This document shows positions 1-44,610 of a stretch of DNA of 64,000 nucleotides, in pieces. The stretch covers positions 20,802,742 to 20,866,741 of the forward strand of contig JAMKCF010000003.1 of NCBI GenBank assembly GCA_023634235.1. The letters run 5' to 3'. A model generated the notes under the pieces. It made no database searches and was not told where the DNA came from. It worked only from the letters and a program-made list of their open reading frames with translations. The position numbers and the translations under genes are program-made. Source of the stretch: Pisaster brevispinus. Lineage: Eukaryota; Echinodermata; Asteroidea; Forcipulatida; Asteriidae. The number at the start of each line of letters is the position of its first letter. Position 1 is the stretch's first letter.

Positions 1-1095
1 GTATCTTCCGAGCTCGTATTAACGAGAGTCGACTGTAGTACCTTTTTCATTGCTGCAATCTAAATGATTGTAGTGGAGACACTTGTTGCAAGTTCTCTTT
101 CTTCAGAATGAGTTAGACAGACTCTACAAACTTCTCTTGGACTCTAAAATGTGATAATCCTGCCATGAATAAGCTCGTTAGCAAACTGCAGAATGTGCTA
201 TTGGTGAGCCTTGGTTGTGATTGATGGCAGTGTGACTTTTGACTAAAAGAAGGGTATCCTCTCAGGACTGGCTGAACCCCGTCGGTAATTTGGGTCCCTC
301 TGACACCGGTGGTTGAATGAGCTGAGTTTTGAGTTGATGTAGAGGATGAATCCTCATTTATAACACGAAGCATGACTTTTGATTTTAATTTTTGTCCCCA
401 TGGGGTTCTGACATTAGTTTAGTGGGACTGGGAAGATATCATTATTTGAATTGGAGGAGGGGTTAGTTTAGCTTTAGACATTGGAAATTATTCGCTCTTA
501 GTGGGTAGGTAAAATCTTCACCTCTAGGTGAAAATAAGGTTACAGGTTGTATTGGATTTTTGACAATGGTTACAGGTTGTATTGGATTGATACTCACATG
601 CAAACATGTTAGTTGGGTTTCTGACAATAGTTTAGTGGAGCGTGGAAGAATGTGTAAATATTAGGGAAAAGGAGGGTTTGGTTCAGCTGAAAGACTTGGT
701 AGGTATCATCTGCACCTCTAGGGAGCAGTTCAACAGTGGTTGCTTCCTTGGGTTTCTTACCTACTTGCAAATAGGTTTCATGAGTTTGTGACAATAGTGA
801 AGTGAGATTGGGAGGTTTTTATGTGATTATTTGAGGGAAGAAGGGTAGATTCAACATAGAACTGAATATATAAATATCTTCTTGGTATCATAATCATCTT
901 GGGAGCAGGTTAAGTTTGGAAACTTTTGGTTGTTTTAAAGTGTAGGAGGGAGTAGGTTTGTGTGTAGTTACAAAAGGTTGATTTTCTGTTGGCATTTTCT
1001 TTTCAAGGACTTTAGGGACAATCTTGTAGATAATGTGGCTTTCCTTAATTTTGGTTTTGGTTCCAACAATACTTTTTCAACACTTCAGGGGACAT
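1..1095. repeat. ~2-kb tandem repeat unit, copy 1 (interrupted right part)
   Basis: From about base 43 this sequence matches 10,380-11,469 and 12,390-13,450 almost base for base, for example the stretches that read GTAGTGGAGACACTTGTT and TACAGGTTGTATTGG. It ends at CAGGGGACAT, where the other copies continue directly into CTTTAACTAGC. Here the continuation resumes only at 9321, after the 8.2-kb element. Short minus-strand ORFs of 60-90 codons recur in the copies but are broken differently in each, so I do not call a gene. The unit resembles no family I know. Confidence 0.85.
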
Positions 1096-1128
1096 CTCGG
1101 CCCTGTGTTGGCAAAAGGGTGTATCTAC
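1096..1128 (+). repeat. Left terminal inverted repeat of the 8.2-kb element
   Basis: It pairs with 9286-9320 over about 30 bp, with three mismatches and one 2-bp indel. The conserved core is CTCGGCC, TGTTGG and AAAAGGGTGT. The core GGCAAAAGGGTGTA is also the motif repeated in the subterminal arrays. Confidence 0.8.
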
Positions 1129-1339
1129 AAAATTCACAATTTGAGAAAACTGATTCTAAAATTTAAATTTCTTAATAGTTTTCTATCATAATTCAATCAG
1201 AGATTAAATTTAGAGCATACACATATCAGAGTGTTCTAGATTTATGTACTTAATCTGGATAATTTAGACTTTTAATTTTTTCAGTTTTTATCAATTTAAA
1301 AAAGTTACGGTTTTCTGCCAACAATCAATATGTAATATT

Positions 1340-1525
1340 TATGACATTGTTGTTTGGCAAAATGGTGTTAGTTGAGTTAGTGCACCTTCTTCAATGTTTC
1401 TTTTCAGGCAAAACGATGCATCTTAAGTTAACGTACAACTTTATAAATTTTGTTTTGGCAAAGGGATGTATCTCTATTTACAGGTTTATCTTTCTTCGAA
1501 TTTTCTGGCAGAAGTGTGTATGTCA
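1340..1525 (+). repeat. Left subterminal motif array, ~50-bp spacing
   Basis: Copies of the GGCAAAAGGGTGTA-like motif begin at 1356, 1407, 1457 and 1507, a spacing of 51, 50 and 50 bp. A related copy sits in the TIR at 1111. The motif degenerates (GGCAAAATGGTGT, GGCAAAACGATGCA, GGCAAAGGGATGTA, GGCAGAAGTGTGTA), but its GGCA start and its phase are kept. In many DNA transposons subterminal repeats bind the transposase. That role here is an inference. Confidence 0.6.
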
Positions 1526-1654
1526 AAATACTTTATTGCACTGAACATTCCAAGCTGTTTGATTTGAAAGGATTTTGCAAACAAAAATACAAAAAACAAT
1601 TTCAAACCCGCAGATATTAACATGAACATTTAGTTTATTATTGCATTGGTTTTT

Positions 1655-3015
1655 ACTAAGGACAGTCACATTTCAAAAATAATCCAATAAAGTAAATTAA
1701 AATTTTATAGCAAGGAAAAGTTTAAACTTTAAATACTATTAAAAAACACATTATTTGTTGCACATCCTGCTTTTGTTTTATTGCAAATTAAAAGAACACT
1801 TGTGAGCCATTTTCCCTAACGAAATACTGCATATTCATACATACTTTTGTTTAGGTCTTAAACATATGAGTTACTGTAAAATCGAAAGTGCGTTCATCTG
1901 TTTTTCTTGTTAACCAGATTTTGGAAATTTGAGCCAATGTTTAAATTGTTCTTGAGGTAATTCTGCTAAAGGAAAGTATTAAGCCTTTTGTACACATTTA
2001 TGCCACTGTTAATCAAGCAACTTCCTGAAATGATTTTGAAAATTTTCAAGATATCACTTGTATTAACTTTTTAAAAAAATGTATTCAATGAAAGACAGAG
2101 TTTGATTTTACAATATTAAAATCTTAAAATCTGGTGGCACACTAATAGAGTTAAAATATAAAACTATGGATGGATTTTTTATGAAAGAGTGCAGTAATTA
2201 TTTGTGTTTGTCCATAAGCCCTCGAACCGCTCTTAACAATTTAAATTAAAGTTAATTGTTGAAATTCATCAGAACAACATACTTTAAACTATCAACTTTT
2301 TTAATTGTTTGAACTTGTACAAAATGGATCACCTTGAAAACTTGAAAACAAAAAACAATAACAAAGTGACCAAGAAACAAACGACCACCTTGTTAATTTA
2401 ATAGAATACAAGTACATGTATACGAATTTGAGGTACAATTATACACTTGTTGAAAAAACTAACTATCCTCTCCGATAACAAAGTATTTTTCGGAAACATG
2501 CTACTAAGGACAATCACATTTCAAAAGTAATCTCAAGTAAGTAAAACAAATCTGATAGCAAAGAAAAAGTTTGAACTTTAAATACTATTCAAGAACACAT
2601 TATTTGTTGCACACCCTGCTTTTGTTTTTTTTTGCAAATTAAAAGAACACTTGTGAGCCCTTTTCCCTAACGAAATACTGCATATTCATAAAGATTTTGT
2701 TTAGGTCTTTAACATATGAGTTACTGTAAAATTGAAAGTGCGTTCATCTTTTTTTCCAAGCAACTTCCTGAAATGATTTTGAAAATTTTCATTTTTAAAA
2801 TTCATCAGAACAACACACTTTAAACTATCAGCTTTTTTAACTGTTTGAACTTGTACGAAATGGATCACCTTGAAAATTTGAAAAAACTAACAATGACAAA
2901 GTGACCAACAAACAAACGACCACCTTGTTAATTTAATAGAATACAAGTACATACGAATTTGAGGTAGAATTATAAACTTGTTGGAAAACACTAACTATCC
3001 TCTCCAAAAAACAAA
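1655..3015. repeat. Imperfect direct duplication downstream of the element's gene
   Basis: The block 1655-1905 (ACTAAGGACAGTCACATTTC and onward) recurs at 2501-2750. The block 2228-2480 (TTCATCAGAACAACATAC and onward) recurs at about 2795-3010. The second copy lacks roughly 300 bp from the middle. The duplicated block is AT-rich, has no ORF of note and lies between the subterminal array and the 3' end of the gene. Nothing else is recognisable from 1,540 to 3,230. Confidence 0.75.
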
Positions 3016-3233
3016 TTCTTTTTTCGGAAACACGAACAAGGGCTCTATCATTGTAAATGTAACTTTGATGCAAAAAAGTGTATCAATTAGAATGTTTTAC
3101 TAATAGCAACAATAGCTTTAATGCATGTCATCAATTGTTTGATCATGCTCTTAATGAAAATCTGCATTTTTAGTAGAGAACTTCAGGCTTCAACAGTATG
3201 TAAATACAAGTATTTCTTATTCCTTTGATATTT

Positions 3234-4930
3234 TTACTCATCTACCTCAAGGTCAGCAGCGGCATCATCAACAGAAAGATTCTCGAAGAATAATTTCTTA
3301 TGAGGTGGCATTGTTGTGGTTAACTTAAGCACCTCTTCCTTCTTTGCTGAGCTTATCCCCTTGGGTTGCTCCATACATGGCAAACTAAGCAAACTTTGAC
3401 CATCAGAAAGTTTGGACTCAAGACTGCGAATCTCTGCTTTCTTTAAAAAGCTCACGCGTTGAAAGCTAGCTTCCTCGTGTGAACTTTTGATGTGCATATC
3501 CAGTGACCCACGTCGAAATTCTAGTACTTTGATATCTTTGAGGTTGATGTTTACCTTCTTCGCGCGATTTTCAAAACTGAACATGGACTTATGATCTATC
3601 TTTGCACACCTTATATTTTTGCGACTAGACCCAATGATGTCACAAATATCTGTAAAATCGCAAATTGTAGTGTACGTGTTCATCTTTGTTGCAATGCTGC
3701 CATGGACAGAGTCTGCTGCCATAAATGTGTGACCGGGTTCCAGGTACTTGATGGTTACACTGTTAGTGCCCAATGATGTGTCATTAACAATTCTCGGTAA
3801 TGCTGACAGTAGTGTCCAGTTTTTATTTTGTGAACTGCAGTTGTCAGCATAGATTATAACTTGCTCCTTGTCTCTGTTTTGTTTGATAAACTCGACATAT
3901 GAGCTGCAGATGTTGTAAGCCTTTCTGCCAGCCTCTCCTTCATGCCAAAGCACACAGAGAGCCTGACTATTTTTTCCTGGAGAAGCAAATGTTTCATTAA
4001 AAACAACTACTTTCCTTGAGAAAAAATGGTCTTTGGTTGCCACCTTCGGTATTGTGATAGCCTTTTGCATATCGACCGTTGTTACGATCACCTTTCTATC
4101 CTGCCGCATTCTCTTTGTGTCAAGATCAAGTGCATCTCTTGCCTGTTGAGCATGCCGCCTGTGCTCAAGATACCCATTGCATGCAAAACAATCACATGTG
4201 CAGCACATATGATCATCTTCCCCAGAATGTGCATGGTCATGCTCCAGGCATTTTTTGCACAAATCATTAGATGGCTGCGCAAATGAGATATTCAATGACT
4301 GAAAGACCTTGAAATAGAATGGATAGCTACATACTACTCCTAATTCACCTTGTGCTCTTTGGGAGTCACTGAAGTTGTTGTACATTTTTGTTACTGACAA
4401 TTCAGAGGGTAGATACCTTCTATTTGGTGCATGTTCTCTCTTATAGTGAGATATTTGTGGTCGGTATGATTCTATGTGATTGACAACCGTTTCTTTATAT
4501 TCAACTGAATATTTGTTGTGTGGTTCATGGTGACCTCTTTGATCCCCGATTGTCCCTACTATTACATCCCCATTTTGTTGAATGTTATGCAATGCACTTA
4601 TTACCAACTTGTCACTCTTGTATCCTATGGTGTGCAAGAAGAATATCTTACATACTACTACAGGTCCAAAACACCACACAATGGTAATTGAACGGCGTGA
4701 TCTCTTGGCTGTGTTTGTGACACTGTGTTTCTCCTTCAATTCAACATTGTGAACGATCCAATCTCTTTGTCGATTGTAATTCATACTCCAAAAGTCATTC
4801 CAAATAGCTCTTCTTTCAATCTCCCCTATCTTTTGTTCACACCTTTTGGAACACTTACATGGTGGTAGCATTTGATGTTTGTCCCTGTTTGCCTCTGTCC
4901 TTTCAGCCGATGTTCGGCGGCGCTTTTTTG
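3234..4930 (-). CDS. Exon 5: DUF7869-type RNase H-like catalytic region
   Basis: This terminal exon holds the conserved part of the element's gene. It has an N-terminal CKCSKRC motif followed by an ERRAIWNDFW helix. A middle Cys/His cluster (DLCKKC, HDHAH, CCTCDCFAC) probably binds zinc. Two beta-strand Asp motifs follow (VTTVDMQ and VIIYADNCSSQNKNW), then PGHTFMAADSVHG. In RNase H-fold nucleases such spaced acids co-ordinate metal. The assignment of Asp798, Asp874 and Asp918 as the triad is an inference. The tail is Lys/Glu-rich and ends in EVDE. No frameshift or stop breaks these 565 codons, which argues for recent function. Confidence 0.75.
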
Positions 4931-7900
4931 CTGTTAAAAGGATACAAGGTTTCACATTACTAAAAAATTGAAACAAATAATTTATCGCATAAAATCATGT
5001 GCAGATATAGGTGCACCTAAATTCTGTTCGGATGAAGTCAATGTATTTTACATTTATAAAATAGTTTCGCTTTTGGTTGCAAGACGAATAATAAAGAATA
5101 GCAGAATGTGCAGATACTGATGTTTACAGAAACGCAAGATGCAATGAAGTTCTCTTTAGCTGTACAACAACCATCTTAACCCTAAAAAATAGAAGATTAC
5201 TAAAAAACAGGATCAATCGTTTCAAACCTTGTCTAGCTTCTGCATGTTGGTCCCCATCAGAGTCAGGTTGGCCCCTATCAGTGTGAGGTTGGTCCCCATC
5301 AGAGTCAGGTTGGTCCCTATCAGAGTCAGGTTGGTCCCCATCAGAGTCAGGTTGGCCCCTATCAGTGTGAGGTTGGTCCCCATCAGAGTCAGGTTGGTCC
5401 CTGTCAGAGTCAGGTTGGTCCCCATCAGAGTCAGGTTGGTCCCTATCAGAGTCAGGTTGGTCCCGATCAGAGTCAGTTTGGTCCCTCTCAGATTTGTCTT
5501 GACCAGGTTGTTCATCAACAATTTGAGAATGTTCAGATTTGCCCCTATTAGCTTCTGTTGGACAGGGCTGGGTCCCTACTGTTTCTGCATAAAATATGGA
5601 CAAGAAAACTTAAGGATGACACAATCTGCATCAACTTGCACGTAACAACTACCATTCTTCACCCAAGAGTGACAATGGTTTAAGAGAATGCACATAGTAA
5701 AAAAAAACACTTGTGTTTATGGTGAGCCTGCAACATGTGGTTAAAATAACAAATTGTGACCACTAATTTATTCATCTCATAATATGTAATGAACTAAATA
5801 GTGCACAAAATGTATGAAGAATAATCCTTGTGAAAGGCTTTTAAATCATTAAATACAAATAATACAAGAGTAACTTTAGGAACAAACCTTCAACAATGCC
5901 AATACTCATGCAGGTAAGTAGAAGGTCATTAACTGCTGATCCAATCGTCTGGCTTATCTGAATTTCCTCTGTAAAAATAAATAAATAAATAGGTAAATTA
6001 AGAAGCAAAAATTATGCACACCAACTATATTTTTGATTTCTTGAAGGACACTTTTAATACCAAACAACAGCTGGCAGGATGTATGTAAAGTACTGTGTAA
6101 ACCGATACAATGAAAATACACCATGTAAAAAGCAAAACAACAAAGTTAAGACATTTCCAAGTTGCCCGTCACATGTAACTTTCTCAAATCGTGTTTGACT
6201 CTGTTCAGTAATACTCTTTGTACAGTCACCTTTAACAACGGCGTGTTGTGTTTGCAAATGTTAGATCATAGTAATGCTATTGTATGCACAAATAGCACAC
6301 ACAGAGACCTGTTTGCTGGGTTCACCCTGCTAAACACTGTCTATATTTTGACTTTTTAAAACTGACAATCTATATTTTCATCAACTTTAGTTATACTAGC
6401 TTTAGAAATACTGTCAAAACATAAACACTATCTTACCGAAAATTGCATTGGTCTCATCAGGCAAGCTTTCCATTTCAACATCACTGTAAGAAGGGTCTGC
6501 TGCTTGCATTATATCAGTGTTAAAACCAGGAGGCAAGGTTGCAGCTCTGTCATCTAGATCAGTTAAGACATTAGTTGAGGAGGTCACAGGAGGCAAGATT
6601 GCAGCTCTGTCATCTTCATTAGTTAAGACATTAGTTGAGGTCTCAGGAGGCAAGGTTGCAGCTCTGTCATCTTCAATAGTTAAGACATTAGTTGAGGTGT
6701 CAGGAGGCAAGATTACAGCTCTGTCATCTTCATCAGTTAAGACATTAGTTGAGGTCTCAGGAGGCAAGGTTGCAGCTTTGTCATCTTCATTAGTTAAGAC
6801 ATTAGTTGAGGTCTCAGGAGGCAAGGTTGCAGCTGTGTCATCTTCATCAGTTAAGACATTAGTTGAGGTGTCAGGAGGCAAGATTACAGCTCTGTCATCT
6901 TCAACAGTTAAGACATTAGTTGAGGTCTCAGGAGGCAAGGTTGCAGCTCTGTCATCTTCATCGGTTAAGACATTAGTTGAGGTGTCAGGAGGCAAGATTG
7001 AAGCTCTGTCATCTTCAACAGTTAAGACATTAGTTGAGGTCTCAGGAGGCAAGGTTGCAGCTCTGTCATCTTCATCAGTTAAGACATTAGTTGAGGTTTT
7101 AGGAGGCAAGGTTGCAGCTCTGTCATCTTCATTAGTTAAGACATTAGTTGAGGTCTCAGGAGGCAAGGTTGCAGCTCTGTCATCTTCAACACTTGAGATA
7201 TTAGTTGCGGAGGTCTCAGGAGGCAAGATTTTGTCTTTGTCATTTTCATCAGTTGAAGCATTAGAAGGGAAGATCTGAGATGAGGTGTTAGTTCTGTCAT
7301 ATCCATCAGCTGTTTCACTTCTTGAGGACTTTTTATGAAGTATGGCTTTTGCTCTATCATGTTCACCAGATGTTGGCACGGTGGATTTATGAGGAAACAA
7401 TGCTCTTTTAGTGCACGATGCTTTAGAATAAACTCTAGTCGAGTCTTCTACTGAAGGTTCTCTTTGGACACGTGTTGCTGAAGGGAAGAACGACAGTTTT
7501 ATTTATTATCTTGTTTTTATATGTAATTAACAAACAATACATTGTTCAATTACCTACACTCCATAATAAAATTAGGAAATGGACATATAATTGTAAAAGT
7601 TGGATGTTAGATTATATCCCAATATTATGCCTGGTATTGAATGCAAAAGCATGTGTACTCAGGCATTCAAATTTTTTTAAAACATTAGCAGCATCAGGAT
7701 GAATGACAAATTGAAAACAAACAATTGTATTTCTTGTCACAGTCATTCTTTTATTGTTGTCAAATTTGATGGCGGAAAAATTGCCATCCTACATGTAAAT
7801 CCTATGCTTGCTCGTTGAATATGGACAAAAATACAGCAGTTCTGTTTCCTTTTTGCAACCTGGCATTCAGCCTCATCCTATGCTTTTTCACAGGTCGGGC

Positions 7901-8455
7901 ATTATGACTAACAATCCAACCTCATTTAGGCTAGTTTGTAGTTTTATTCTCACAGTATTTTTTATTGAATGTAGAATGTTAACACAAACATGTAGGCCTA
8001 CTACAATAAAACCACATACCGAAAAACAACCCAAAGTTTACTTTAAAGTAATCAACCGCGCATTAATCTTGTGGAACTTAGGCCTACACATGTTGCAATA
8101 CATCATTACATAGCAGTTAAAAAGCGTTAATAATTTTTCAGCCCAATTGTTTCCTTAAATTCAAAAAATTATCACCAACATCAGCCTTGATGAATGTCTC
8201 TTCAAATGTGTAACTGTATACTCTAAGCCACCAGTAATTAACCAAAGCCACCATCATTACTAGTATTGGTAGACCTACATTACTCCTATGAGTGTAACAA
8301 CCTCATAGTTCTACTCTAGGTCTTAGGAGTACGGTAGACCTACAAAACTATACATTTATGCCAAGTTAAAAAAACACAACACCAACATTTTATTACTTAC
8401 CCTTACGATTTTTAAGTGCTAGTTTTACCATGATAAGCCCTCGACCAGTTGCCAT
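3234..8455 (-). CDS. Five-exon DUF7869-type protein, putative transposase, 1076 aa
   Basis: The exons are 8455-8401, 7477-6437, 5968-5888, 5584-5228 and 4930-3234. Donors are GTAAGT, GTAAGA, GTTTGT and GTTTGA. Acceptors end in TTCAG, TACAG, TGCAG and AACAG. All four introns are phase 1. The spliced frame is 3231 nt with no internal stop, from ATG (8455) to TAA (3234). Residues about 1-18 are short and basic. Exon 2 encodes a 19-residue acidic repeat and exon 4 a 7-residue acidic repeat, both likely disordered. Exon 5 (residues 512-1076) opens with a CxCxxxC motif (536-542). It then has a Cys-rich cluster (736-762, CKKC and CCTCDCFAC) and an RNase H-like core with TVDMQK (Asp798), YADNCSSQNKN (Asp874) and EPGHTFMAADSVHG (His912, Asp918). 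This pattern is typical of DUF7869-containing proteins of invertebrates. The first exon-5 residues seen in an unspliced ORF (4976-4931) are intronic. A variant poly(A) signal, ATTAAA, lies at 3122-3117. The transposase role is inferred from position inside the element. Domestication is the alternative. Confidence 0.75.
5246..5490 (-). repeat. 21-bp coding minisatellite in exon 4
   Basis: About a dozen 21-bp units (plus-strand core GGTTGGTCCCCATCAGAGTCA) encode a DSDRDQP-type heptad, with higher-order variants DSDGDQP and HTDRGQP recurring in the same order. The period is a multiple of three, so copy-number change keeps the frame. The encoded peptide is strongly acidic. Confidence 0.9.
6525..7265 (-). 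repeat. 57-bp coding minisatellite in exon 2
   Basis: About 13 tandem units of 57 bp encode a 19-residue repeat of the form EDDRAATLPPETSTNVLT with a variable first residue (D, N, V or I). Alternating subtypes (AATLPPET and AVILPPDT) suggest expansion as dimers. One unit carries an extra Ser codon. All changes keep the frame. Confidence 0.9.
7480..8400. other. Intron 1 of the element's gene
   Basis: An AT-rich 923-bp intron (8400-7478) lies between the ATG exon and the repeat-coding exon. No recognisable feature or convincing ORF was seen in it. Confidence 0.5.
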
Positions 8456-8720
8456 GATGCAGTGTTAACCATGCCCTTACCGTGCGTATGTCACACACTT
8501 GCACTGACATAATGACATGTACTGTACATACATGATGTACACCAATGCTGGTCGTAACTAGGGGGAAGCGCCCTCTTTTGCTGACAATATTTTGGGTAGT
8601 ATGGGGTAACTGGGAGTTATAATGTACACAATCTATTACATAAAGAAAACATTTCAAGGGAAAATGGTGTATGTTTAAAATATAACAACTGTGACATGTT
8701 TAAACAGTTAAGGCTATGTA

Positions 8721-9060
8721 CGCCAAAAAGATGTATCTGGAGATAGAACTGGAAATAGCTCAATAAAATGAGAGAAGATGTACTGAAATATTAGGTAAAA
8801 AGGCGTACAATAAAGATAGCTCTTTGAACGCATTCAATACAGAGGTATTTCTTTCTGGCAAAAGGGTGTAAATAGATTTACAACTTTTTGAAATTTAATG
8901 GGAGACAGTTTGGCGACATTAATTTTTGGCAAATGAACGCAAATAGTACATACCCCTTTTCAAAAAAGAATTTGGTTTTGCACTAGATGTTAGCCATTAT
9001 GGTCTTTCATGAGATCAAAAGAAGAAAATATTGACGTTAATTTAATGGCAAATATATGTA
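8721..9060 (+). repeat. Right subterminal motif array, ~72-bp spacing
   Basis: Motif copies start at about 8721 (GCCAAAAAGATGTATCT), 8794 (GGTAAAAAGGCGTA), 8867 (GGCAAAAGGGTGTAAATAG) and 8938 (GGCAAATGAACGCAAATAG), with a further copy at 9047 (GGCAAATATATGTAAATAG). The first four are 71-73 bp apart. Inverted copies appear near 8960 and 9120. The region lies upstream of the gene's first exon, so it may also overlap its promoter. Confidence 0.55.
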
Positions 9061-9285
9061 AATAGTAGATAGAATGTTTTGGCTCAGATCACGTGAAACT
9101 AAACAAGGTGCATCTAGAACATACGCCTTTGTGCCACACTGACTAGTCTACTACTTGGCAAACTTGCCAAAGATAGCACATGTTATCTCCTAAACGGTAA
9201 CTTGTTTTGAAATGAAACATAAAAAATTGGATAGAGCGCCCTCAAATTTGTCTGAGAGCCAAAAACCTAAAAAATGTTCTATATA

Positions 9286-9320
9286 TGAGATACACACCCT
9301 TTTACCAACAGACGGCCGAG
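9286..9320 (-). repeat. Right terminal inverted repeat of the 8.2-kb element
   Basis: On the plus strand it reads TACACACCCTTTTACCAAC followed by AGACGGCCGAG, the inverse of the left terminus at 1096-1128. The next base, 9321, resumes the tandem-repeat sequence CTTTAACTAGC. Confidence 0.8.
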
Positions 9321-11469
9321 CTTTAACTAGCTTTTTTTAGAACAGCTTACCATAAAGTAGGTCTAGTTAGGGTACATGTAGCAAATTTTTAAAAACCTAG
9401 GTAGGCCTAGTTATATTTTTTGCTGTCAGAACACTTCAAGAATTGGACTCAAATTGCAAGAAATTATTACTAGACCACAAGCCAGAACACATAAAAAGAT
9501 CAAAACTTTTTGTTTCTTTCTAAATTTTTGTGGAATTGATTTTTGATATTTGGATAAGTGCTAAAATCACTTGATCAGTCCCTTTTTGCTTGCGGGTTAC
9601 TGATCTAGTGCTAAATAACTGGTAAGTGGTCGGTGGGTAATTTGAGCCCAGCTGTTGCTTTTGTGAAGCATTTCATTCGCGGCATAGTGTCCGCCATTAG
9701 TGGACTCAACCTGCTCACGCCTTGGCAGTGTCTTAGAGGCACATTTATCAACCAGGAACAGTTTGTACCTGAGGTGATGACTTCTTGGTCACAAGTCAAC
9801 TGTCATCAATTGCAAGCAGGGCACACTGGTAGCTAAATTTTGCAGTTTGTTTATATGCATTACATCACGAATTGTTTCTTTGAAGCATTAATTTATCCAG
9901 AATTCCATAAGGTCTGTTCACAGAAAAAAGAGAGCTGGATCAATTGTTTTCACCACAATCAATTAATTGATTCGTCTATCTTGTACATTGTGGATATTAA
10001 ATGTGCTAACATTTGCTATGCTAGTCTCTTCATCATTGTGTGTCTTAAGCTTCTTACTCAAAAAGTCAACAATCTCCAGGTATATTTCACTTATGATTTC
10101 AGAGGTTCCTTATTACAAAGAAAGTCAAAGTATCAGTTCTTTCATTTCACAATGTTGTGCTTTTCATTTTTCTTTTTATCATCATTATAAAAAATACTAA
10201 GAATAAAACTCCTAAGTTGAAAGAAAATATTGCATTAAGAAAGCTAATGAATCACTTTTTAAAATCTTTTAAATGAAGCCAGATAGCAAGAAAGTGGAGC
10301 TGGAACTATCCCAGGGAGTGGTCACCCCTGCTCATGACGATGCATAAAGAAATCAACAACTAGCAGCCTTTTCATCTGCTGCAATGTACTGAAGATGTGA
10401 TCATCGGGATGATTGTAGTGGAGACACTTGTTACAAGTTCTCTTTCTTCAGGATGAGTTGGACAGACTCTACTAACTTCTCTTTGACTCTAAATGTGATA
10501 ATCCTGCCATGAATAAGCTGGTTAGCAAACTGCGGAATGTGCTATTGGTAAGCCTTGGTTGTGATTGATGGCAGTGTGACTTTTGACTAAAAGAAGAGTA
10601 TCCTCTCAGGACTGGCTGAACCCCGTTGGTAATTTGGGTCTCTCTGACACCGGGGGTTGGATGAGCTGAGTTTTGAGTTGATGTAGAGGATGAGTCCTCA
10701 TTTATAATACGAAATATGACTTTAGATTTTTCATTTTTTTTTCCCCTTGTTGTTCTGACATTATTTTAGTGGGACTGGGAAGTTATCATTATTTGAATAG
10801 GAGGAGGGGTTAGTTTAGCTTTAGACATTGGAAATGGTTTGCTCTTAGTGGGGAGGTAAAATCTTCACCTCTATGTGAAAATAAGGTTACAGGTTGTATT
10901 GGATTTTTGACAATGGTTTCAGGTTGTGATGGATTGATACTCACATGCAAACATGTTTGTGGAGTTTCTGACAATAGTTTAGTGGAGCTTGGAAGTAATG
11001 TGTCATTAATAGAGAGAAGGATGGGTTGGTTCAGCTTAAGGACAGTGAAAATAGGTTTCACTTACTTGGTATGTATCAGCTGCACCATTAGGGAGCAGTT
11101 CAACAGTGGTTGCTTTCCTTGGTTTCTTACTTTTAATACTTGCAAAAAGGTTTCATGAGTTTGTGATAATATTTTAGTAAGATTGGGAGGTTTCGTGTGA
11201 TTGTTTGACGAAAGAAGGGGTAGATTTAACGAAGAACTGAATAAATAAATATTTTCTTGGTATCATAATCATCTTGGGAGCAGGTTTAGTTTGGAAACTT
11301 TTGGTTGTTTTAAAGTTTAGGAGGGAGTAGGTTTGTGTGTAGTTACAAAAGCTTGTTTTTTGTAGGCATTTTCTTTTAAAGGACTTTAGGGACAATCTTG
11401 TAGATAATGTGGCTTTCCTTAATTTTGGTTTTGGTTTCAACAACACCTTTTCAACACTTCAGGGGATAT
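9321..11469. repeat. ~2-kb tandem repeat unit, copy 2 (2149 bp)
   Basis: The unit starts at CTTTAACTAGC and ends at CAGGGGATAT. It matches copy 3 (11,470-13,450) throughout, except for about 170 extra bases near 9,990-10,190. A minus-strand ORF of about 62 codons (9611-9799) is conserved in all copies, but adjacent frames differ in their stops. No domain is recognised. Confidence 0.85.
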
Positions 11470-13450
11470 CTTTAACTAGCTTTTTTTAGAACAGCTTACC
11501 ATAAAGTAGGTCTAGTTAGGGTACATGTAGCAAATTTTTAGAAAACCTAGGTAGGCCTAGTTATATTTTTTGCTGTCAGAACACTTCAAGAATTGGACTC
11601 AAATTGCAAGAAATTATTACTAGACCACAAGCCAGAACACATAAAAAGACCAAAACTTTTTTTTTTCCTTTCTAAATTTTTGTGGAATTGATTTTTGATA
11701 TTTGGATAAGTGCTAAAATCGCTTGATCAGTCCCTTTTTGCTTGCGGGTTACTGATCTAGTGCTAAATTACTGGTAAGTGGTCAGTGGGTAATTTGAGCC
11801 AAGCTGTTGCTTTTGGGAAGCATTTCATTCGCGGCATAGTGTCCGCCATTAGTGGACTCAACCTGCTCATGCCTTGGCAGGGTCTTACGGGCACATTTAT
11901 CGACCAGGAACAGTTGGTACCTGAGATGATCACTTCTTGGTTACAAGTCAACTGTCATCAATTGCAAGGAGGACACACTGGTAGCTAAGTTTTGCAGTTT
12001 GTTTATAAGCATTTCATCTGGAATTGTTTCTTTGAAGCATTAATTTATCAAAAATTCCATAAAGTCTGTTCACAGAAAAGAAAACTGGATCAATTGTTTT
12101 CACAACAATCAGCTTGTTGAATCTTCTATCTTGTACTTTGTGGATATTTTTATTGTTATCATCATTTTGAAACAATAAGAAGAAGAAAATTCCCAACTAG
12201 TTTAAATTATTGCGTTAAGAAAGCTACAGGTTGAATGAATCAATTTTTTAAAACCTTTAATTGAAGCCAGATAGCAAGATAGTTGAGCTAGAACTACTCC
12301 AGGGAGTGGTCACCTCTGCCCATTACGATGCATAAGGAAATCAACAACTAGTAGCTTTTTCAATTGATGTAATGTACTGAAGATGTGATCATCAGGATGA
12401 TTGTAGTGGAGACACTTGTTACAAGTTCTCTTTCTTCAGGATGAGTTGGACAGACTCTACTAACTTCTCTTTGACTCTAAATGTGATAATCCTGCCATGA
12501 ATAAGCTGGTTAGCAAACTGTAGAATGTGCTATTAGTGAGCCTTGGTTGTGATTGATGGCAGTGTGACTTTTGACTAAAAGAAGAGTATCCTCTCAGGAC
12601 TGGCTGAACCCCGTTGGTAATTTGGGTCTCTCTGACACCGGAGGTTGGATGAGCTGAGTTTTGAGTTGATGTAAAGGATGCATCCTCGTTTATAACACAA
12701 AGCATGACTTGATTTTATTTTTTTTTTTCCACTAGGGTTCTGACATTATTTTAGTGGGACTGGGAAGATATTATTATTTGAATAGGAGGAGGGGTTAGTT
12801 TAGCTTTAGACATTGGAAATGGTTTGCTCTTAGTGGGGAGGTAAAATCTTCACCTTTAGGTGAAAATAAGGTTACAGGTTGTATTAAATTTTTGACAATG
12901 GTTACAGGTTGTATTGGATTGATACTCACATGCAAACATGTTAGTTGGGTTTCTGACAATAGTTTAGTGGAGCTTGGAAGTAATGTGTAACTATTAGGGA
13001 GAAGGATGGGTTGGTTCAGCTTATAGACAGTGAAAATAGGTTGCACTTACTTGGTAGGTATCATCTGCACCTCTAGGGAGCAGTTCAACAGTTGTTGCTT
13101 CCTTGGGTTTTTCACTTACTTGCAAATAGGTTTCATGAGTTTGTAATAATATTTTAGTAAGATTGGGAGGTTTCGTGTTATTGTTTGACAAAAGAAGGGG
13201 TAGATTTAACGAAGACCTGAATAAATAAATATTTTCTTGGTATCATAATCATCTTGGGAGCAGGTTTAGTTTGGAAACTTTTGGTTGTTTAAAAGTGTAG
13301 GAGGGAGTAGGTTTGTGTGTAGTTACAAAAGGTTGATTTTCTGTTGGCATTTTTTTTTAAAGGACTTTAGGGACAATCTTGTAGATACTGTGGCTTTTCT
13401 TAATGTTGGCTTTGGTTCCAACAATACTTTTTCAACACTTCAGGGGATAT
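11470..13450. repeat. ~2-kb tandem repeat unit, copy 3 (1981 bp)
   Basis: This is the second uninterrupted copy. Its junctions with copies 2 and 4 (GGGGATATCTTTAACTAG) show the unoccupied insertion site of the 8.2-kb element. Differences from copy 2 are mostly single-base changes and short indels in T-runs. Confidence 0.85.
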
Positions 13451-14115
13451 CTTTAACTAGCTTTTTTTTTTAACAGCTCACCATATAGTAGGACTAGTTA
13501 GGGTACATGTAGCAAATTCTTATAATTCTAGGTAAGCCTAGTTGTATTTTTTTCCTGTCAGAACACTACAAGAATTGGGCTCAAATTGCAAAAAATTATT
13601 ACTAGACCACAAGCCAGAACACATAAAAGACCAAAACTTTTTTTTTTCTTTCTAATTTTTTGTGGAATTTATTTTTTAATTTTGGATAAGTGCTAAAATC
13701 ACTTGATCAGTCCCTTTTTGCTTGCCGGTTACTGATCTAGTGCTAAATTACTGGTAAGTGGTCAGTGGGTAATTTGAGCCCAGCTGTTGCTTTTCTGAAG
13801 CATTTCACTCGCGGCATAGTGTCCGCCATCAGTGGACTCAACCTGCTCATGCCTTGGCAGGGTCTTAGTGGCACATTTATCTACCAGGAACAGTTGGTAC
13901 CTGAGATGATGACTTCTCGGTCAAAAGTCAACTGTCATCAATTGCAAGCAGGGCACACTGCTAGCTTAGTTTTGCAGTTTGTTTATAAGCATTTCATCTC
14001 TTGAAGCATTAACTTATCCAGAGTTTTATCAAGTCTGTTCACAGAAAAGAGAGCTGGATCTATTGTTTTCACCACAATCAGCTTGTTGAATCTTCTATCT
14101 TGTACATTATAGATA
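13451..14115. repeat. ~2-kb tandem repeat unit, copy 4 (truncated)
   Basis: It aligns with the left third of copies 2 and 3 up to TCTTGTACATT (about 14,108). It is then replaced by sequence of the dispersed Helentron-like family. Confidence 0.8.
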
Positions 14116-22835: not shown

Positions 22836-24640
22836 TATCTATTGTACATGTTCAACAGTGCTGTAATGCAATGGAATGAGCACTTCAGACTTATATTCTT
22901 CTGACGATGGTCACTGGAATACAAGTTTGGATCAAGATTGCCATTCAGATCTATGGACAATTTATCTCACTATCAGATGATGAGGTTTTTATTGTACAGC
23001 ACATCAAAGCCTTGGGCATATCTGTCATATTAGCTTATCGTGTACATTGTACATGTTCAACAGTGCTGTAATGCAATGGAATGAGCACTTCAGACTTATA
23101 TTCTTCTGACGATGGTCACTGGAATACAAGTTTGGATCAAGATTGCCATTCAGATCTATGGACAATTCATCTCACTATCAGATGATGAGGTTTTTATTGT
23201 ACAGCACATCAAAGCCTTGGGCATATCTGTCATATTAGCTTATCGTGTACATTGTACATGTTCAACAGTGCTGTAATGCAATGGAATGAGCACTTCAGAC
23301 TTATATTCTTCTGACGATGGTCACTGGAATACAAGTTTGGATCAAGATTGCCATTCAGATCTATGGACAATTTATCTCACTATCAGATGATGAGGTTTTT
23401 ATTGTACAGCACATCAAAGCCTTGGGCATATCTGTCATATTAGCTTATCGTGTACATTGTACATGTTCAACAGTGCTATAATGCAATGGAATGAGCACTT
23501 CAGACTTATATTCTTCTGACGATGGTCACTGGAATACAAGTTTGGATCAAGATTGCCATTCAGATCTATGGACAATTCATCTCACTATCAGATGATGAGG
23601 TTTTTATTGTACAGCACATCAAAGCCTTGGGCATATCTGTCATATTAGCTTATTGTGTACATTGTACATGTTCAACAGTGCTGTAATGCAATGGAATGAG
23701 CACTTCAGACTTTGATTCTTCTGGCGATGGCCACTGGAATACAAGTTTGGATCAAGATTGCCATTCAGATCTATGGACAATTCATCTCACTATCAGATGA
23801 TGAGGTTTTTATTGTACAACACATCAAAGCCTTGGGCATATCTGTCATATTAGCTTATCGTGTACATTGTACATGTTCAACAGTGCTGTAATGCAATGGA
23901 ATGAGCACTTCAGACTTATATTCTTCTGACGATGGTCACTGGAATACAAGTTTGGATCAAGATTGCCATTCAGATCTATGGACAATTCATCTCACTATCA
24001 GATAATGAGGTTTTTATTGTACAGCACATCAAAGCCTTGGGCATATCTGTCATATTAGCTTATCAATCCATGTACATTGTACATGTTCAACAGTGCTGTA
24101 ATGCAACGGAATGAGCACTTCAGACTTATATTCTTCTGACGATGGTCACTGGAATACAAGTTTGGATCAAGATTGCCATTCAGATCTATGGACAATTCAT
24201 CTCACTATCAGATGATGAGGTTTTTATTGTACAGCACATCAAAGCCTTGGGCATATCTGTCATATTAGCTTATCGTGTACGTTGTACAATTTCAACAGTG
24301 CTGTATTGCAATGGAATGAGCACTTCAAACTTTGATTCATCTGGCGATGGTCACTGGAATACAAGTTTGGATCATGATTGCCATTCAGATCTATGGAAAT
24401 ATCCTCCTTAATATTTCAAGTGATGTCTAACATCAGCTTCAGAGACTTGGACATAGCCATCCAATTGGCTTATATTGTGCAAGTGAAACAGTGCTGTAAT
24501 GCAATGGAACAAACACTTCAGACTTATATTCTTGTGACGAGGGTAATAGAAATACAAGTTTGGATCAAGATTGCCATTCAGATCTATGGAAGATTCCCAA
24601 TCTTTATCAGATGATGTGGCATAGGCCTACAATGAACATC
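22836..24640. repeat. 205-bp tandem repeat array, ~8.8 copies
   Basis: The phrase TGTACATTGTACATGTTC recurs at 23,041, 23,246, 23,451, 23,656, 23,861 and 24,071. The spacing is 205 bp, except for one 210-bp step. A partial first copy begins near 22,836. Copies at 24,276 and about 24,476 are progressively diverged. Central copies are nearly identical. The period is not a multiple of three, and the apparent ORFs are repeat shadows. Confidence 0.92.
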
Positions 24641-42690: not shown

Positions 42691-44610
42691 GCGTTAACAA
42701 TGTGTTTAGTTTATAGTCACGTGGATGTTCATTTTCAGCTTTGTTTTATGCAAAAGTTAAACAAAGTGTTTAGCTGCTGAATGTAACATGATCATCATGC
42801 ATTTTCAAAGCGATTTAAACGTGTCATGTTCAGTTGCTCCTGATATAAAAAGTTTAGAAACGAATGTGTTCATCACGTGTACAAACTGAACACATGCGAT
42901 AAATGCACCAAATTATATTATTGTATGTTTAGTTTAGTTTTAAAACGCATGTCTCGTGTATAAACTAAACACATGTGTATAGAACGCACCATTTGTGTTT
43001 TATTATTTTGTTTAGTTAAAAAACGCATGTGTTTATCATGTGTATTATAAACTAAACAAGCAGTGTTTAGACGACAAACGCACCAAGTTTGTATCATGTT
43101 ATTATATTTATAGTTTAAAAATGTTTGTGTTTATTTTGTAAAACTAAACACTGTGTTTAGTTGATATACTTGATAAACACATGCGTTTTTATTATTTTGC
43201 ATGTGTTTATCAAATGAATAAACTATAACCACATTGTGTTTAAAAGATAAAGGCGCCAATTGTATTGTTGGTAAATGTTTAGTTTAAAAATGCTTGTTCT
43301 GTATTTTCATCTTGTGTTATAAACTAAGTGTTTAGACGATAAACGCACCATTTGTATTTTATTATTTTGCATATGTTTATCACATGTATAAACTTAACAC
43401 ATTGTGTTTAGGAGATAAACACACCATTTGTATTGTATTATAATTATATGTTTACTTCAAAACGCATGTGTTTATCATGATGAATAAACTAAACACACTT
43501 TGTTTAGTAAACGCACCAAATTATGTTATAATATGTTAGTTTAAAAATGCACGCGTAAAACTAAACACACTGTTTAAGAAATTAACCTTTTGTGTTTTTT
43601 CATTTAGTTTAGTTTAAAACCGCATGTGTTTATCACGTGTATAAAAAATACACACATTGTGTTCAGTTTATACACATGATAAACACATGCATTTTTTTTG
43701 CATGTGTTTATCATATGTATAAACTAAAAACACATTGTGTTTAGAAGATAAACGCGCCATTTGTATTGTATTGGTAAATGTTTAGTTTTAAAACACATTA
43801 GTTTTATTTCCATGGTGTGTTATAAACTAAGTTTCAGATGATAAACGCACCATTTGTAAAAAAAAATTGCGCCATTTGTATTGTATTATAATTATATGTT
43901 TAGTTTAAAACGCATGTGTTTATAATGGTGAACAAACTAAATACACTTTGTTTTTAAGGCACCAAATTTTGTTATGATATGTTTAGTTTAAAAATGCGCG
44001 TGTAAAACTAAACACACTGTGTTTAAGAACACACCATTTTTTAAAGTTTAAAATCGCATGTGTTTATCGCGTGTATAAAAAATACACACATTGTGTTTAT
44101 ATGATAAACACAACAAATTTGTACTAAGTTATATGTTTTGTTTAAAAAAGCAAATGTTTATCTTGTGTGTAACTAAACACATTGTGTTTAGATGATAAAC
44201 GCACAATTTGTATTTTATTGTTATACGTTTAGTTTAAACACACATTTGTTTATTACGTGTGTATACAACTAAACACAATGTGTTTAGACGATAATCGCGC
44301 CATTTATGTTGAATTTTTGTATGTTTATTTTAAAATTGCATGTGTTTATCTTGTGTAAACTAAACACATTGTGTTTAGATGATTAACGCACCATTTGTGT
44401 TGTACTTCTATGATGTGTTAAGTTTGAAAACGTGTCATGTGTTTATCACGTGTAGTAACTAAACACATTGCGTTTATAAGAGATATATTATAAGACCCAC
44501 CTCACTTTGTTAAACATTTTGCTTTGCTTATACACTCGGTGTTTAAATGATAAAGGCGTCATTTGTAGTTTAGTTATCACGTGTTTAGATTAAAACTCGT
44601 CATGTGTTTC
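42690..44610. repeat. Degenerate satellite, ~80-95-bp period
   Basis: The words AAACGCACCATTTGTA, ATGTTTAGTTTAAAACGC, ATGTGTTTATCA and AAACACATTGTGTTTAG recur in order. CGCACCA-type anchors occur near 42,905, 42,985, 43,078, 43,343, 43,418, 43,512, 43,842, 44,197, 44,291 and 44,386. Copies differ by many substitutions and indels, so the array is old. Many copies contain the near-palindrome AAACACATTGTGTTT. Confidence 0.8.

Follow-up and report, generated by a model that had tools for sequence, protein, structure and literature searches.

We analysed a stretch of 64,000 nucleotides from the genome of Pisaster brevispinus (assembly GCA_023634235.1, contig JAMKCF010000003.1, positions 20,802,742 to 20,866,741 of the forward strand), hereafter the window, which contains an 8,221-bp element with CGGCC..GGCCG ends and, within it, a single spliced gene for a protein with a DUF7869 domain. 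A host repeat of about 2 kb is present in three copies; the element lies within the first, and the other two are uninterrupted, with the corresponding junctions at 11469/11470 and 13450/13451. Its terminal inverted repeats (TIRs) are 25 bp long and imperfect. An earlier note, made from the sequence alone, had described a complete TIR transposon with its empty site preserved in the two sister repeats, and both points are borne out by our analysis; over the span of that first reading (1096-1122 against 9294-9320) the inverted ends match at 24 of 27 positions.

The search for related ends across the 550-Mb genome with the motif CGGCCCTGTKTTGGYAAAAGGGTGT, allowing up to three mismatches, returned 53 matches (25 forward and 28 reverse), and the reversed pattern used as control returned none in either orientation. 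From these 53 ends we built 18 facing pairs, with 17 ends left unpaired; the pairs comprise the window element, a homologous gene locus on contig C15 and 16 short pairs, which measure about 0.43-1.08 kb. An exact 4-bp duplication lies directly outside CGG..CCG in 14 of the 18 pairs, 4-bp agreement across pairs was found in 10 of 306 combinations, and none of the 18 facing pairs shares 5 bp or more. The count of exact duplications becomes 13 of 17 if two pairs on contig C33 are taken as one, since their mirror-image flanks indicate that they are probably a single duplicated insertion. The four inexact pairs are the window (ATCT/AGCT), C7 (3/4 bases), C4:5074553 (1/4) and C8 (1/4). The exact targets are of mixed sequence with G or T as the last base, TTAA occurs in none of the 14, and the bases outside CGGCC differ from copy to copy. 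The short copies, which have no room for the gene, are presumably mobilised in trans; non-autonomous copies of this kind had been predicted from the window. We also detected three copies on contig C3 (L055, L056 and L057), each with a single end found and with the common flank ttcttcggaggtgat; because this flank is identical, they look like one insertion multiplied by duplication of host DNA.

These pairs also correct the boundaries of the window element. The first reading had given it CTCGGCC termini and no target duplication, and both statements have to be abandoned: because the related copies have 4-bp duplications outside CGG..CCG and both empty sites read ATCT, the left CT and the right AG are target bases that pair by chance, and the wrong termini and the missed duplication, both 2-bp boundary errors, go back to a single base change in the target copy on the right. 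Judged from the flanks and the empty sites, insertion of the element made a 4-bp duplication of ATCT, of which the right copy now reads AGCT. A reading as an element that inserts without duplication, or as CTCGGCC ends brought together by chance rearrangement, has in its favour that in the window alone CT..AG makes the inverted repeat 2 bp longer and that the two target copies are not identical, but it is contradicted by the exact 4-bp duplications of the other pairs and by the varying bases outside CGGCC, and we regard it as hardly credible. A 2-bp duplication of CT was likewise rejected, as just one of the 18 pairs shares 2 bp and that pair also shares 4.

Inside the ends, the 16-mer TGGCAAAAGGGTGTAT (up to three mismatches) has eight matches in the 64 kb and all eight fall within the element's terminal regions, compared with 0 to 2 matches in each of five shuffles. 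The subterminal arrays recognised at first reading are therefore confirmed, and these repeats are possible binding sites of the transposase.

The gene, as had been proposed, is one intact spliced unit, with five exons on the minus strand, GT/AG borders and an open reading frame (ORF) of 1,076 amino acids. Its C-terminal end is 68% identical, over 577 aligned columns, to the annotated Asterias rubens protein P0001, and the splice model is supported because the N-terminus, the exon 2-3 junction region and the C-terminal stretch all resemble this protein. The Pfam model DUF7869 (PF25273), which has a cut-off of 26 bits, scored 29.8 with exon 5 alone and 28.4 with the whole protein, both above the gathering threshold. 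No other transposase family in Pfam matched the window protein, and NCBIfam returned no families. Inside the element there is no second ORF of comparable length; the next in length, on one strand or the other, overlap exons 2 and 4. Two tandem repeats, with units of 7 and of 19 codons, are present in the non-catalytic part of the predicted transposase (Table 1). In the corresponding part, the paralogue on contig C42 carries long repeats of its own, of the MSPSVVNQ type, and since both genes have repeats there, N-terminal regions rich in repeats are a recurrent feature of the family.

Table 1. Features of the element and of its empty target sites, in window coordinates.
Feature	Position	Strand	Remarks
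Whole element, corrected boundaries	1098..9318	.	4-bp duplications directly outside CGG..CCG in 14/18 related facing pairs; both sister repeats retain the empty site
5' terminal inverted repeat, 25 bp	1098..1122	+	22/25 match with 3' repeat
3' terminal inverted repeat, 25 bp	9294..9318	-	22/25 match with 5' repeat
Left target-site copy ATCT	1094..1097	.	ATCT also in both empty sites
Right target-site copy AGCT, differing from ATCT by one base	9319..9322	.	
Empty target site ATCT, sister host repeat 2	11468..11471	.	
Empty target site ATCT, sister host repeat 3	13449..13452	.	
Subterminal array of TGGCAAAAGGGTGTAT direct repeats, starts 1109, 1355, 1456, 1506	1109..1521	+	
Subterminal repeats of TGGCAAAAGGGTGTAT, other end: 8657+, 8856+, 9121-, 9292-	8657..9307	.	
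Exon 1, start codon at 8455	8401..8455	-	GT donor; N-terminus resembles Asterias rubens P0001
Exon 2, 57-bp (19-codon) tandem repeat at 6527-7264	6437..7477	-	
Exon 3	5888..5968	-	Exon 2-3 junction region resembles P0001
Exon 4, 21-bp (7-codon) tandem repeat at 5246-5492	5228..5584	-	
Exon 5: N-terminal Cys motifs, Cys/His cluster, DUF7869 with putative triad of three Asp (DDD); includes stop codon	3234..4930	-	

Outside the element, the window also contains a 205-bp tandem array of 8.6 copies (22841-24590) and a region of degenerate repeats of about 95 bp (42849-44481).

The exon-5 protein matches at least 46 stretches of the genome. We chose seven other gene loci by homology to exon 5, named here by their contigs (C15, C14, C74, C125, C1, C42 and C19), and searched their flanks for 16-bp inverted repeats bordered by an exact 4-bp repeat, the end sequence not being preset. 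A perfect 16-bp TIR together with an exact 4-bp duplication was found at four of the seven loci, namely C15 (TIR CGGCCCTGTTTTGGTA, duplication CCCT), C14 (CGTCAGCGACGCCACG, AATT) and both C74 and C125 (CGTCGCATTTTTCTCA, ATTT); these represent three independent insertions, because C74 and C125 have identical flanks. In the control with mismatched flanks, none of 40 cross pairs gave a match with zero or one mismatch, and 7 matches with two mismatches and 97 with three were obtained. The elements measure 5,714 bp at C15, 5,198 bp at C74 and 8,603 bp at C14, complete elements overall ranging from 5.2 to 8.6 kb. The termini start with CGGCC in the window and at C15 and with CGTC at C14, C74 and C125, and the C15 gene, 48% identical to the window gene, belongs to the same clade and has the same ends. 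The prediction that the same ends would surround other genes of the family thus held at C15; C14, C74 and C125 have different TIRs, and at C1 (10 kb searched), C42 and C19 (20 kb each) no intact TIR pair was found. In the left flank of C42 a sequence judged by eye to resemble the C14 end is present, and its right partner was not seen.

The co-occurrence of homologous genes and inverted ends bears directly on the role of the protein. If the gene were a passenger or a host gene and a different transposase mobilised the ends, the absence of other copies of the window element at high identity and the three homologous loci without intact ends would be in keeping with it; however, homologous genes recur in elements with different TIRs and the same 4-bp rule, Pfam matched no other transposase family and the element has no other ORF of comparable length, which makes this explanation very improbable. 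The suggestion of the earlier note that the DUF7869 protein is a good candidate for the transposase is supported, as the ends recur around C15 and distant homologues lie inside other TIR elements with 4-bp duplications.

Five ORFs from these loci were scanned with the DUF7869 model: C14 (30.1) and C19 (31.9) pass, C74 (24.0) and C15 (22.1) remain below the threshold and C42 gave no match, which means that part of the family escapes the Pfam model. On contig C19, a DUF7869-type ORF (L046:3709-5844) has an internal duplication of part of the predicted catalytic domain, in which the region of the second Asp occurs twice, as DVC and as DGC. On contigs C24 and C25 (L015-L021, L023, L024 and L033-L038), an N-terminal transposase fragment of about 100 residues is repeated many times, and the copies on C25 at 1051498, 1060698 and 1069900 have a 9.2-kb spacing. 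The ORFs listed for L017 and L036 do not include the remainder of the transposase.

To describe the protein family we used an alignment (A1) of the window protein with 101 of the 120 listed matches, out of 259 found; the 19 left out are mostly partial. Residues D286, D362 and D406 are invariant in all 102 rows; the first and second Asp are separated by 73-87 residues and the second and third by 41-46, and C224, C227 and H256 are invariant as well. A 10-row alignment to which a second clade contributes three genes also shows the three Asp as invariant; in these three genes 'GHTFMAAD' is replaced by 'NHGQSEGD' or 'AHGQSEGD'. In a tree of 37 chosen rows, rooted at the midpoint and with a long-branch warning for P0102, C15 groups with the window in one half, the other half contains C14, C74, C42 and C19, and support is 100/100 for each half. 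Named homologues are from echinoderms, insects and molluscs, and also from fish and a crab. Viral contigs scanned with the family alignment gave 21 pattern matches, none of them a relative by tblastn. We infer that D286, D362 and D406 form an RNase H active site, and the Cys/His motifs that precede DUF7869 probably bind zinc.

These data are best explained by a cut-and-paste DDD transposon, probably of the Sola superfamily, whose DUF7869 protein is the transposase, and we give this reading a probability of about 0.85; that the element is a transposon and the protein its transposase is, taken alone, very probable. The single gene would encode a DDD transposase with a C-terminal DUF7869 catalytic domain placed after the Cys/His motifs. 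The protein would bind to both the TIRs and the subterminal repeats and cut at CGG..CCG, which would release the element, and insertion at a 4-bp staggered cut would create the 4-bp duplication. The sequences of the flanks and empty sites bear out the step of insertion with duplication, and catalysis by the Asp residues, binding of zinc and DNA and the chemistry of excision are predicted. Such a reading would provide a likely job for a domain that Pfam lists with its function unassigned and that is present in 'uncharacterized' genes of echinoderms, insects, molluscs and fish. It would also allow DUF7869 genes to be screened as transposons with predictable ends (CG start and 4-bp duplication), and the defined ends, the complete gene model and the short non-autonomous copies are components for an excision assay.

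Several observations weigh against this reading. In the window copy the target duplication is imperfect (3/4 bases) and the TIRs match at only 22 of 25 positions, a close second copy was not found, the best other 5' end being 75% identical, and C1, C42 and C19 lack a detected pair of ends. Two sequence searches of solved structures gave one non-significant match each. Sola elements are reported in bacteria too (PMC10741241), whereas the bacterial and archaeal genomes that we scanned with the family motifs gave eight pattern matches, none a relative by tblastn. Finally, the likeness to Sola is one of printed features.

Subterminal repeats are common in the CMC group (CACTA, Mirage and Chapaev), and the window element shares them. 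EnSpm elements differ by their CAC..GTG ends and 3-bp duplications (PMC12730594), compared with CGG..CCG or CGTC and 4 bp here, and an EnSpm/CACTA identity is ruled out by the CGGCC..GGCCG termini and the 4-bp duplication. The IS3EU families of rust fungi have 6-bp duplications and TAYGG ends (PMC12730594), and this identity is ruled out by the absence of pairs sharing 5 bp or more. Kolobok (PMC9587614) and piggyBac (PMC5199201) also make duplications of 4 bp, but of TTAA. Both were discarded, since TTAA is found in none of the 14 exact duplications. Sola3 has a TTAA target as well, unlike the exact duplications here.

The description of Sola as a whole comprises a DDD transposase, a 4-bp duplication, a size of mostly 2-9 kb, TIRs of at least 11 bp and very variable ends (PMC10741241). 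The window element is similar in its 8,221 bp and 25-bp TIRs and in the 4-bp duplication (14 of 18 pairs, four of seven other loci, 3/4 bases in the window copy itself), and its family has three invariant Asp with a putative catalytic role. The same features are reportedly given in the abstract of the publication of 2009 in which Sola received its name. Curated bivalve Sola1 elements have a mean length of 5,445 bp (PMC10294476), and Sola2 of social amoebae has AT-rich targets (PMC3627910), in contrast to the mixed targets ending in G or T of the window group. No Sola-named family appeared among the Pfam or NCBIfam matches.

Literature on starfish and Sola gave no relevant work (a plant genome only), and the names DUF7869 and PF25273 were absent from the literature searched, which left most subscription journals outside its scope. 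Since neither name appears there, connecting the DUF7869 domain with defined transposon ends may be without precedent in print, Repbase being outside the comparison. One could go further and treat DUF7869 transposons as a superfamily of their own, convergent with Sola or very distant from it, widespread in animals and composed of two deep lineages (CGGCC and CGTC) whose members have termini starting with CG, duplicate 4 bp and combine a Cys/His cluster with a DDD triad in which 41-46 residues separate the last two Asp. The termini (CGGCC in the window and C15, CGTC in C14, C74 and C125), the absence of both domain names from the literature searched, the deep two-clade family and the lack of a bacterial relative in our scan agree with such a rank; nevertheless, Sola has already been described in print by a DDD transposase, 4-bp duplications and very variable termini (PMC10741241), and we consider a separate superfamily unlikely. 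By the same description, an undescribed group, which the earlier note had proposed beside a poorly described one, is not supported, the comparison being one of descriptions. Because the 4-bp duplication, the 2-9 kb size and the variable TIRs match, and the DDD transposase as far as conservation goes, we favour Sola membership as the likely assignment by printed description, and the kind of element present in the window is most likely already known.

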